64,000 nucleotides of DNA from Bacteroidales bacterium (GTDB taxonomy: Bacteria > Bacteroidota > Bacteroidia > Bacteroidales > Prolixibacteraceae), in NCBI GenBank assembly GCA_012719495.1, contig JAAYAG010000139.1:1-64000 (forward strand), read 5' to 3'. Each line of letters opens with the position of its first letter. Position 1 is the stretch's first letter. The notes under the pieces were generated by a model, which was given only the letters and a program-made list of their open reading frames with translations, did not search any database and was not told the DNA's origin. The translations under genes and the position numbers were made by a program. Positions 3,364 through 5,365 of this stretch are shown here, piece after piece.

Positions 3364-4356
3364 ATGTTTGATTCATTAAATTTAACATCATCGTCGCAAA
3401 CTCAACCTGTTGGCAGTGAAGCTGAGAAGGTGAAGTGTTTGATAATAGGCTCTGGCCCAGCGGGATATACTGCTGCTATATATGCTGCCCGCGCTAATTT
3501 GAAACCCGTAATGTACGAGGGGCTGCAACCAGGAGGGCAATTAACAACAACTACCGAAGTAGAAAATTTTCCAGGATATCCAAATGGCATTACCGGACCT
3601 GAATTGATGGAGGATCTTAAAAAACAGGCTCAACGTTTCGGAACAGATATTCGTTGGGGGCTTGCCACTGCTGCTGACTTATCCCAAAGACCATTTAAAG
3701 TGACCATCGATAGTTCGAAACGTGTAGAAGCAGAGGTTCTTATCATTGCTACTGGTGCTACAGCGAAATATCTTGGGTTACCCGATGAACAAAAATATGC
3801 TGGCGGTGGAGTTTCGGCTTGCGCAACTTGCGATGGTTTTTTCTATCGTGGGAAAGATGTAGCTGTTGTTGGGGGTGGCGATACTGCTGCTGAAGAAGCT
3901 ATTTATTTGGCTGGTTTGTGCAACAAAGTATATTTAATTGTACGCAGAGATGAGCTTCGGGCTTCGAAAGTTATGCAAGAAAGAGTTGCCAAAACTCCAA
4001 ATATTGAAGTGCTCTGGAAACATCAAACCAAGAGTTTGTTCGGAGATAAGGTGGTTGAAGGTGCCGAATTATATAAGAATAGAGGCGAAGCAAACGAAGA
4101 AATCGTGCGCATAAAAATTGATGGTTTTTTCCTTGCCATCGGGCATAAACCGAATTCAGATATTTTCAAAAACTATCTTGAACTCGATGAGGTTGGCTAC
4201 ATAAAGACAATTCCAGGAACATCAAAGACAAATATAGATGGCGTTTTTGCTTGTGGTGACGTGCAGGATCCTCATTACCGACAGGCCATTACTGCAGCCG
4301 GTTCTGGTTGTATGGCTGCCATCGATGCCGAAAGGTATCTTTCTGAAAATGCATAA
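3364..4356 (+). CDS. trxB: Thioredoxin-disulfide reductase
   Basis: 330 residues from ATG 3364; an in-frame TTG at 3337 would add nine Lys/Asn-rich residues and is less likely. The enzyme reduces thioredoxin with NADPH through FAD and a redox disulfide. The FAD-binding GSGPAGYTAA is at residues 29-38, the active-site CATC at residues 153-156, the NADPH-binding GGGDTAAEEA follows, and GVFACGDVQD is near the C terminus. The first 22 residues (MFDSLNLTSSSQTQPVG...) are a short low-complexity extension ahead of the FAD domain. It has its own promoter and terminator. Confidence 0.96.
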   Translation: MFDSLNLTSSSQTQPVGSEAEKVKCLIIGSGPAGYTAAIYAARANLKPVMYEGLQPGGQLTTTTEVENFPGYPNGITGPELMEDLKKQAQRFGTDIRWGLATAADLSQRPFKVTIDSSKRVEAEVLIIATGATAKYLGLPDEQKYAGGGVSACATCDGFFYRGKDVAVVGGGDTAAEEAIYLAGLCNKVYLIVRRDELRASKVMQERVAKTPNIEVLWKHQTKSLFGDKVVEGAELYKNRGEANEEIVRIKIDGFFLAIGHKPNSDIFKNYLELDEVGYIKTIPGTSKTNIDGVFACGDVQDPHYRQAITAAGSGCMAAIDAERYLSENA

Positions 4357-4404: not shown

Positions 4405-4555
4405 ATATGAATTTGTTGGGTGTAAAATTTCGAGAACGCTTTATTTGAAATGTCTTTAATGAAATCTGATACTATTGATTAATCTTTGAAAGGCGAAATG
4501 TTAATGAGAAAACTGAGAAGAAAAAGGAATATATATATAACAAAAAAGTGGATCC

Positions 4556-4618
4556 ACAGTTGTTTTAATCTTATACAACTGTAAAACCACAGCTAAATTT
4601 ATTCAAAACAGAATAAAT
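4556..4618 (-). terminator. Two small hairpins after the first microprotein gene
   Basis: A perfect inverted repeat ATTTATTC/GAATAAAT (4597-4604, 4611-4618) and a second ACAGTTGT/ACAACTGT (4556-4563, 4575-4582) lie just past the stop codon of the 4625-4714 gene on the minus strand. A T-run follows the second after about eight bases. They are AT-rich and therefore weak, but they are the only candidate 3' end for that transcript. Confidence 0.4.
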
Positions 4619-4624
4619 GAAAAA

Positions 4625-4714
4625 TTATGCTGCTTTGGTTCTTTTCATTTCACTTACAAAAGCAATTCCTACTGCAATTAAAAAAACTCCTAATGCGATT
4701 CCTAAGTACAACAT
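4625..4714 (-). CDS. Single-pass membrane microprotein A (29 aa)
   Basis: A 29-residue frame starting MLYLGIALGVF and ending MKRTKAA. One hydrophobic helix (residues 2-20) is followed by a basic tail, giving a likely N-out/C-in single-pass inner-membrane peptide. It is supported as a gene because 15 of its first 20 residues are identical to the microprotein at 4916-5008 and 10 of 20 match the one at 5161-5241, all on the same strand. A TAnnTTTG box lies 28 bases upstream and a 21-bp-period repeat array lies about 80 bases upstream. Function unknown; possible roles are a small membrane-complex subunit, kinase modulator or envelope-stress peptide. Confidence 0.65.
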   Translation of the reverse strand: MLYLGIALGVFLIAVGIAFVSEMKRTKAA

Positions 4715-4742
4715 GGCTTTTTCTTTTAATTAGTTAGTAGTA

Positions 4743-4750
4743 CAAATTTA
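4743..4750 (-). promoter_or_regulatory. -7 box of microprotein A
   Basis: On the minus strand TAAATTTG, a full match to TAnnTTTG, giving a leader of roughly 25 bases. No TTTG -33 element is at the expected distance, which would suit an activator-dependent promoter. Confidence 0.55.
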
Positions 4751-4793
4751 TGCTAAAAATCAATCCATTGAAAGGGGTAAAAGCCTCCTTTTT

Positions 4794-4844
4794 ATGAACG
4801 TGCTTTATTTGTTGACGAACGTTCATAATTTGTTGACGAACGTA
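4794..4844 (-). promoter_or_regulatory. Triple 21-bp-period direct repeat, LytTR-like operator
   Basis: Three nonamers in exact 21-bp register: minus-strand TACGTTCGT (4836-4844), AACGTTCGT (4815-4823) and CACGTTCAT (4794-4802). The first two match the published LytTR-regulator site [TA][AC][CA]GTTN[AG][TG], which occurs as pairs with 12-13 bp spacers; the third misses one position. The array lies 42 bp upstream of the -7 box of microprotein A. A second, weaker array of the same period precedes microprotein C. Confidence 0.55.
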
Positions 4845-4856
4845 TAAAATGGAATA

Positions 4857-4885
4857 AAAAAAATGCCCCCAAAGGGCATTTTTTA
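4857..4885 (-). terminator. Terminator of microprotein B
   Basis: Arms AAAAAATGCCC and GGGCATTTTTT around a CCAAA loop form a strong bidirectional-looking hairpin, 30 bases past the stop of the 4916-5008 gene on the minus strand. Confidence 0.8.
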
Positions 4886-4915
4886 TTGCGAGAGTGGGTT
4901 CTGTTGCAGCTAAGC

Positions 4916-5008
4916 CTAAAATATTGTCTTTGTTTTTTTCGATTTGGTAACAAAGGCAATTGCTACAGCTGTCAAAAATATTCCGAAAACAATTCCTAAG
5001 TACAACAT
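4916..5008 (-). CDS. Single-pass membrane microprotein B (30 aa)
   Basis: A 30-residue frame starting MLYLGIVFGIF and ending KSKKTKTIF: a 19-residue hydrophobic helix followed by a Lys/Thr-rich basic tail. It is a close paralogue of microprotein A (15 of the first 20 residues identical), with substitutions that keep hydrophobicity, which argues for selection at the protein level. It is followed by a strong terminator. No TAnnTTTG box was found directly upstream, and no terminator separates it from microprotein C, so it may be the second gene of a C-B transcript. Function unknown. Confidence 0.65.
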   Translation of the reverse strand: MLYLGIVFGIFLTAVAIAFVTKSKKTKTIF

Positions 5009-5160
5009 GGCTATTTATTTATTAAATTGATAAAGTATTAGTTAATAAGTGTTTAATTCTTTTTTGTTCTTTTTTGTCGACACCATATAATGCTGTGCTA
5101 TTAGAACAAGCTTTTGTCGAATTGTTCATTTTACCTTGTAAAAGAACTTTTCCCGGAGAT

Positions 5161-5241
5161 TTAATTCTTTCCGCTTAGACCTAAATACGATAAGCCAACA
5201 GCCAGAAAGAAAACTCCTATTGCAATTAGTATGTATATCAT
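5161..5241 (-). CDS. Single-pass membrane microprotein C (26 aa)
   Basis: A 26-residue frame, MIYILIAIGVFFLAVGLSYL followed by GLSGKN. It is nearly all membrane helix with a short polar tail. It shares the Y3, G9, F11, A14 and V15 pattern with microproteins A and B and is the most distant of the three. It has its own TAATTTTG box 23 bases upstream and a pair of 21-bp-period repeats whose distance to that box (63 bp) equals the distance of the middle repeat to the box of gene A. Function unknown. Confidence 0.6.
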   Translation of the reverse strand: MIYILIAIGVFFLAVGLSYLGLSGKN

Positions 5242-5263: not shown

Positions 5264-5271
5264 CAAAATTA
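5264..5271 (-). promoter_or_regulatory. -7 box of microprotein C
   Basis: On the minus strand TAATTTTG, a full match to TAnnTTTG. It overlaps the edge of a perfect inverted repeat TAAGAC/GTCTTA (5270-5287) that could be a further operator. Confidence 0.5.
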
Positions 5272-5335
5272 AGACAAAATAGTCTTAAATAAAAGTATTC
5301 CATAAATTATTTTATTGTATTGGTATGAAGTTTTG

Positions 5336-5365
5336 ACAAACGTGTTATTTTGTGTGACGAATGGA
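5336..5365 (-). promoter_or_regulatory. 21-bp-period direct repeat pair, LytTR-like operator
   Basis: Minus-strand CACGTTTGT (5336-5344) and TCCATTCGT (5357-5365) are 21 bp apart. Each misses one position of the LytTR consensus. The placement relative to the microprotein C -7 box repeats that of the 4794-4844 array relative to gene A. Confidence 0.4.

Follow-up and report, generated by a model that had tools for sequence, protein, structure and literature searches.

A 64,000-nucleotide stretch of DNA from a Bacteroidales bacterium of the family Prolixibacteraceae (GenBank assembly GCA_012719495.1, contig JAAYAG010000139.1, positions 1 to 64,000; hereafter the window) carries three very short genes in tandem, which we call A, B, and C and which are predicted to encode membrane microproteins. 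The window corresponds to contig C132 of its genome (G000; 4.19 Mb in 151 contigs). The three genes are encoded on the minus strand and are flanked by two plus-strand genes, trxB (ending at 4356) and gltX (starting at ~5480); these gene names, like that of ispE below, were read from translations. Microprotein A (MLYLGIALGVFLIAVGIAFVSEMKRTKAA; 4625–4714) is an open reading frame of 29 residues that matches the family profile described below with an E value of 2.0e-15, B (MLYLGIVFGIFLTAVAIAFVTKSKKTKTIF; 4916–5008) is one of 30 residues (8.9e-15), and C (MIYILIAIGVFFLAVGLSYLGLSGKN; 5161–5241) is one of 26 residues (1.6e-10). All three frames are present where a preliminary description of this DNA had placed them, and the identities that it gave, 15 of the first 20 residues between A and B and 10 between A and C, hold in a by-eye count on the translations. 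We are very highly confident that A, B, and C are genuine genes of an uncatalogued family; chance reading frames were rejected in view of the homologues, the selection acting on them, and the conservation of their promoters.

A TAnnTTTG box, referred to here as the −7 box, precedes two of the three genes, as had been described: that of A (TAAATTTG) lies at 4743–4750 and that of C (TAATTTTG) at 5264–5271, both on the minus strand. B is without such a box nearby, and its LytTR-type repeat, a feature introduced below, is unconvincing (score of 11.5). The core of a terminator hairpin 3′ of B is found at 4863–4879 on the minus strand (folding of 4846–4890, −13.9 kcal/mol), which bears out the strong terminator reported for this gene, and A has one too: the stretch 3′ of A (4530–4624) folds with −23.9 kcal/mol overall in RNAfold and contains two hairpins, and a probable terminator, a hairpin then T6, spans 4548–4590 on the minus strand (coordinates from the RNAfold structure line). 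No hairpin-plus-T terminator was found after C. Because C is without a terminator, and B is without a box or a good repeat and is followed by a strong terminator, C and B are probably one transcript, with B transcribed from the C promoter by read-through, and A is probably a separate one.

Family membership, spread, and selection

A profile of 15 sequences was searched in 140 genomes of Prolixibacteraceae and listed 16 of them at E ≤ 0.1. Ten were kept, comprising G000 itself, both genomes of genus g4, and seven genomes of genus g17, and these hold 28 members in three of 23 genera, with one to five members per genome: five in G000, where the two further copies are D on contig C118 and E on contig C38; four each in G003 and G024; three each in G150 and G154; two each in G033, G149, G152, and G153; and one in G016. 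The count includes L187, which was read from a later locus, and L049 of G149 (E 0.0028), which has a TAnnTTTG box and a repeat score of 13.0 and was kept as a diverged member; without L049 the count is 27. The six remaining genomes (G119, G124, G125, G145, G008, and G158; E 0.001–0.04, one with an internal stop) were dropped as chance, as were weak second matches at G033:C64 and G016:C224. Some members that the profile caught had escaped an earlier search of 61 genomes with a single sequence.

A search of 394 further genomes from the phylum yielded no member at E ≤ 0.001, and 392 other genomes drawn from the order gave just two weak partial matches, both rejected: the DNA of L057 does not give a family peptide, and L058 follows a tRNA and has no nearby in-frame start codon. 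Among 12 loci from named public genomes, 11 are titled Prolixibacteraceae and one is a false match; L070 (bacterium S4R_St_43) was rejected as a longer frame in which the similarity stops early. NCBIfam gave no matches for A, B, or C, and PHROGs none for B, the sole peptide tried; Pfam gave sub-threshold matches only, to TarH for A (12.4 bits) and to FixS for C (13.1 bits), with none listed for B. Searches of open-licence PubMed Central (PMC) articles returned nothing on the family, which does not prove its absence from print. The members are thus best described as putative single-span inner-membrane proteins of 26 to 34 residues that appear, as far as searched, to be confined to three genera of Prolixibacteraceae.

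Phage records held no family match. One viral contig (IMGVR_UViG_3300049726_000068; L212, 3001–3249), the only such contig found, encodes a protein of 82 residues, of which the first 25 show 60% identity to A, and the gene directly precedes that of an endolysin (PHROG 9589, E 1.6e-14). This protein may be a microprotein captured in a lysis cassette, or it may reflect convergence.

The amino acid sequence of the family is under strong purifying selection, a conclusion in which our confidence is very high. Over codons 2 to 22, the proportions of synonymous (pS) and nonsynonymous (pN) differences in 13 disjoint pairs are 0.60 and 0.13, respectively (Fisher p ~1.5e-37); these pairs were picked by protein identity, which biases pN low, and a comparison of all 351 pairs of 27 members, which is free of that bias and uses non-independent pairs, gives a pS of 0.61 and a pN of 0.24. 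Of the two findings by which the preliminary description said it would be refuted, one was a lack of homologues with synonymous-biased divergence, and the 28 members supply such homologues; its claims of coding capacity, of paralogy, and, by hydropathy, of membrane character are likewise supported. M1, F11, and A14 are invariant in all 28 members, and conservation is nearly as high at G16 (27 of 28), at G9, V15, and A18 (26 each), at Y3 and A7 (24 each), and at E22 (23). Positions 3, 7, 11, 14, 18, and 22 would share one face of a helix. Mean hydropathy over residues 2–20 is 2.3 to 2.8 in every member, which points to a location in the membrane. The net charge of the tail is positive in 14 members, zero in 11, and negative in three, so that the earlier argument for an N-out/C-in orientation from basic tails is not general. 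The ribosome-binding-site-like sequence AAGGA stands close to the start in five of 27 members.

A BLAST comparison of neighboring genes shows that seven members at four loci share the neighbor that is gltX here, namely A, B, and C in the window, one member in G003, one in G154, and a tandem pair in G150. Seven other members, E included, share another neighbor, and six of these also share a gene that reads as ispE in L004. Since both syntenic sets span all three genera, at least two copies are probably older than the split of the genera. Tandem copies occur here and in two relatives (G024 C138 and G150 C9), the other copies are solitary, and the tandem arrangement is not the essence of the family. 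A hairpin-plus-T follows 21 of 27 members, two of these hairpins being weak (above −3 kcal/mol), and six members are without one. By eye, the DNA flanking the copies shares little beyond promoter elements; the earlier statement that intergenic DNA does not align missed the regulatory repeats that the copies have in common.

Promoter repeats and the genes they precede

The promoter layout of the family is conserved, and here too our confidence is very high. In 15 of 27 upstream regions (300 nt), half-sites of the form VTTCRT are paired at a spacing of exactly 21 bp, compared with 0.05 on average and never more than 1 over 300 shuffles; a spacing of 42 bp is found in seven of the regions, and any other spacing from 15 to 44 bp in four at most. 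With a graded score for VTTCRTCAA pairs (260 nt), 24 of 28 upstream regions reach at least 13 at a spacing of 21, compared with 17 at 42 (2 × 21) and no more than 10 at other spacings between 11 and 35; the graded score and its threshold of 13 were chosen with the motif already known. A TAnnTTTG box lies within 70 nt of 21 of the 27 genes. Among the 54 half-sites found 30–130 bp before a box, 38 occupy three positions, 16 of them at 48/49 bp, 15 at 69/70 bp, and seven at 90/91 bp, with distances counted from the box.

In the window, 21-bp direct repeats are present for A and C and not for B. The three predicted half-sites of A (4791–4841, minus strand) are found at 4833–4841 (GTTCGTCAA), 4812–4820 (GTTCGTCAA), and 4791–4799 (GTTCATAAA), which places them 49, 70, and 91 bp upstream of the −7 box, and those of C (5333–5362, minus strand) at 5354–5362 (ATTCGTCAC) and 5333–5341 (GTTTGTCAA), 91 and 70 bp upstream of its box. 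LytTR sites are described, in an excerpt of PMC4847170, as repeats of 9–11 nt with 11–13 nt between them, and the available portion of PMC6193735 states that the repeats of LytTR regulatory systems (LRSs) tend to sit 10 bp upstream of the −35 element and that such repeats precede a TATCTTTG box in Bacteroides LRS-like operons. The 21-bp period and the fixed distance to the box match this published layout, and on these grounds we read the repeats, with high confidence, as predicted sites of a LytTR-type regulator. We also take the half-site to fit an older LytTR consensus.

Several observations detract from this assignment. LytTR sites have a common layout and no common consensus sequence (excerpt of PMC4847170), so that the spacing, not the letters, bears the argument; 16 of the 54 half-sites lie off the three preferred positions; and B, E, L069, and L187 are without a good 21-bp repeat. 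A further one concerns the link between the motif and the peptides, since genus g7 (G147, G006, and G148) has six to seven sites of the looser motif per genome and no microproteins.

The strict form of the motif, RTTCGTCAA-N12-RTTCRTAAA, has nine matches in the 140 genomes (one in the reversed control), of which six are directly upstream of microprotein genes and three are inside what is apparently one homologous coding gene of genus g11. The looser form has 41 matches in the ten microprotein genomes, nine of which have it, compared with one in the reversed control. By our own reading, 16 precede microprotein genes, four the gene of a secreted protein of 153 residues, two a candidate small RNA, and two metallo-β-lactamase-like secreted proteins, one of which was checked and matches Lactamase_B_2 with 23.1 bits, below the cut-off of 27; three are inside large frames, and the remaining 14 are at other secreted or unassigned genes. 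At least one match to the looser form is found in 91 of the 140 genomes. The 130 genomes without microproteins mostly have none to two, 18 of them have three or more, and the largest numbers are seven each in G147 and G148, six in G006, and five in G141; the motif type thus has a broader distribution than the microprotein. In G147 and G006, none of the twelve sites that were examined precedes a microprotein. Several of the genus g7 sites (e.g., L159–L170) have a third phased copy and similar linkers, and they perhaps belong to a related but different regulon.

Eleven of the 140 genomes have a gene of the 153-residue secreted protein; they belong to precisely the three genera that have microproteins, and one of them is G151 (56% complete), where no microprotein was found. 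Scoring covered 12 of the 13 copies, all but L207, which was not parsed, and took an internal Met as the start of L201 and L205; 11 of the 12 upstream regions score at least 13 at 21 bp, ten of them convincingly, the match of L205 (13.0, at −198) being unconvincing; other spacings give five at most. The protein has no Pfam match, and an AlphaFold2 model (mean predicted local distance difference test score of 77, mostly β) found a best match in the PDB with an E value of 0.0096 and a template modeling score of 0.32, which permits no fold assignment. Contigs C50 and C91 each have a copy of the gene at one end (L053 1–462 and L054 7712–8173), the two copies being 97% identical, so that the assembly probably broke at this repeat.

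The candidate small RNA lies at 1480–1740 of both L123 (G000:C46) and L128 (G149:C193), where ~80 nt are nearly identical between two genera and end in an inverted repeat plus a T-run. Half-sites precede the box by 90, 69, and 48 bp in L123 and by 90, 69, and 50 bp in L128, the last of these being weaker. A search of Rfam gave no match up to E 0.1 in these loci. The conserved stretch reads as a candidate small RNA of the same regulon. In the literature that we searched, LytTR regulons of Bacteroidota receive little attention, and a site of fixed geometry lets the targets be listed across genomes: the microproteins, the 153-residue protein, the candidate small RNA, and other secreted proteins.

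A candidate regulator and a candidate second operator

One predicted site (G000:C50:547–576) lies between a two-component operon of a His_kinase (PF06580) protein and a LytTR response regulator and a gene of the 153-residue protein. Relatives of this C50 regulator that are 63–72% identical, the closest among the matches listed, are found in eight of the nine other microprotein genomes, the ninth being G150, which is 80% complete; the next relatives, again among the matches listed, are at most 55% identical and belong to genomes without microproteins. No more than 19 candidates were scored per genome in this comparison. With moderate confidence, we regard the C50 LytTR protein as the leading candidate regulator only. 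Three points speak against it: its co-occurrence with the microproteins is also expected from kinship, as the three genera may be close relatives; no strict site was found within ~1.5 kb of the regulator gene in the eight relatives, the looser pattern occurring near it in one place, L082, inside the kinase frame; and no gene of the 153-residue protein stands beside the regulator in the two relatives whose neighbors were listed. The idea that the peptide mimics the membrane helix of the kinase is unsupported, the family profile scoring 1.6 bits on the histidine kinase orthologue in L082 and 4.0 bits on another histidine kinase.

A second element, the palindrome AAGAC-N6-GTCTT, is found upstream of seven members, including C, and runs into the TAnnTTTG box in C and in L187. 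In the window it is a perfect palindrome (TTAAGACTATTTTGTCTTAA; 5269–5288, minus strand) that overlaps the start of the −7 box of C, and it is a candidate second operator. Its 5-N6-5 geometry is, we presume, FNR/CRP-like. The paralogues accordingly differ in promoter class, having LytTR-type repeats alone or the palindrome with or instead of them, and the class is associated with the peptide sequence: residue 17 is Leu in all seven palindrome-class members, C among them, and in two of the 21 others. Such an association is expected if the peptide variants act differently, and the condition-specific variants envisaged by the preliminary description gain support from it and from the differing promoter classes; it could also stem from shared descent. 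In a tree of the 28 peptides, which offer too few columns, two of 25 inner branches are starred, and a single origin of the palindrome class is not shown; the palindrome label needs four changes on this tree, and 10 of 500 shuffles are as low.

The case for a second operator is weakened by the fact that the palindrome was first seen in these same promoters and that WAAGAC-N6-GTCTTW is not enriched genome-wide in the ten genomes (23 sites versus 28 in the reversed control). Six of the 23 sites are at microprotein promoters, a count that is partly circular because the motif was found there. Superoxide dismutase genes follow three of them, each in a different genome (one Pfam-checked, two by our own reading), one precedes a hybrid-cluster protein gene (Prismane, Pfam-checked), one is at a gene of the 153-residue family, and two are at large secreted proteins, with a LytTR-type repeat present as well at one of these two; the remaining ten are unassigned or include an extracytoplasmic function (ECF) sigma factor and a kinase-like gene. 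We consider it a fair guess that the second regulator would be redox-linked. The hybrid-cluster and superoxide dismutase loci with the palindrome are G000:C48:35238 (L188), L179, L183/L195, and L193. No regulator of the palindrome was identified among the neighbors of the hybrid-cluster (hcp), superoxide dismutase (sod), and ECF sigma genes; HcpR was considered because of hcp, and the accessible part of PMC13370916 gave no motif for comparison.

Proposed role of the peptides and alternatives

We think it likely that A, B, and C are part of a regulon under LytTR control, perhaps with a partial redox link, and that this regulon delivers a one-helix membrane peptide by which a membrane partner is tuned. 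Most copies would be switched on by a LytTR-type response regulator bound to the 21-bp-spaced repeats, ~49, 70, and 91 bp upstream of the TAnnTTTG box. At AAGAC-N6-GTCTT, an operator that would also serve genes of superoxide dismutase and of a hybrid-cluster protein, a second regulator would govern some of the copies, C among them and, through read-through from C, B as well. The peptide would insert as one helix in the inner membrane, where its small/aromatic face (Y3, A7, F11, A14, and A18, ending in E22) would pack on a membrane partner and tune it, an action comparable to that of MgrB and other stress-induced regulatory peptides. A partner-tuning helix is suggested by the signalling-type promoter control, the conserved face with E22, and the small size. 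The odds of the partner-binding role itself we put at about even, the evidence for it being the conservation. An uncatalogued membrane microprotein family is thereby presented together with its likely control circuit, and both are visible from sequence alone because the promoter layout and the peptide are conserved together; peptides of fewer than 35 residues become testable in this way, by motif geometry and codon substitution.

MgrB, the PhoQ/PhoP feedback peptide of 47 residues in Enterobacteria, is under OmpR-type control. It resembles the family in being a small single-span membrane peptide, and the family promoters have putative sites of a response-regulator type; the family peptides are shorter, have several paralogues per genome, appear to be under LytTR-type control, and are not known to inhibit a kinase. 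An excerpt of PMC2789325 describes MgrB as a small inner-membrane peptide that is part of a two-component regulon. LRSs (HdrRM and BrsRM) and Bacteroides LRS-like operons, as presented in the available portion of PMC6193735, also have tandem repeats upstream and a membrane protein in the circuit, but the membrane protein here is a single predicted helix of 26 to 34 residues that is not in the regulator operon at the loci read, and the half-sites here stand some bases farther from the −7 box than those of the Bacteroides example (our own arithmetic on a table in that paper). A more speculative extension, which we hold to be doubtful, is that interchangeable one-helix subunits descended from one gene, mostly scattered and under different stress operators, compete or mix on one membrane partner; if so, the subunit mix in the membrane would record which stress occurred.

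Ibs, Ldr, TisB, and TimP are very short hydrophobic peptides, often multi-copy or stress-induced, and the family could be of this type I toxin-like kind, in which short hydrophobic helices encoded in multiple copies (TisB, Ibs, and Ldr) depolarize or arrest the cell. The size, the hydrophobicity, the several and partly tandem copies, mostly with their own promoters and terminators, and the stress-type promoter control would all suit such toxins; we nevertheless consider them unlikely, since the peptide is under strong purifying selection while the flanks of the copies differ by eye, the conserved helix face including E22 exceeds the apparent needs of a general membrane disruptor, and two loci are syntenic over genera, the conservation of face and synteny also setting the family apart from the known type I toxins. 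Nor is an antisense RNA known for the family: Rfam gave no match at the gathering score in the window, and no search was aimed at antisense RNAs beyond Rfam, so that an antitoxin RNA absent from Rfam may exist.

Less likely again is a role as small subunits that are accessory to a respiratory or transport complex and expressed on demand, as CydX, CcoS/FixS, and KdpF are accessory subunits. One helix with small-residue faces would be in keeping with such subunits, as would the palindrome that is common to sod and hybrid-cluster genes, and the sub-threshold similarity of C to FixS/CcoS (PF03597) extends over 21 residues (E 0.08). However, the score of C is below the curated cut-off of 23.1 bits, A and B have no FixS match, and no curated family matches; one to five mostly dispersed paralogues with different promoters would be unusual for a stoichiometric subunit, and the recurrent neighbors that we recognized, gltX, trxB, and ispE, are housekeeping genes.

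That the transcripts act as small RNAs, with frames that are incidental or secondary, is highly improbable: the units are short and have terminators, and the same promoter type drives a candidate noncoding RNA, but the amino acids are conserved with synonymous sites near saturation, the untranslated regions differ between copies by eye, and AAGGA is found near the start in the five members noted above.

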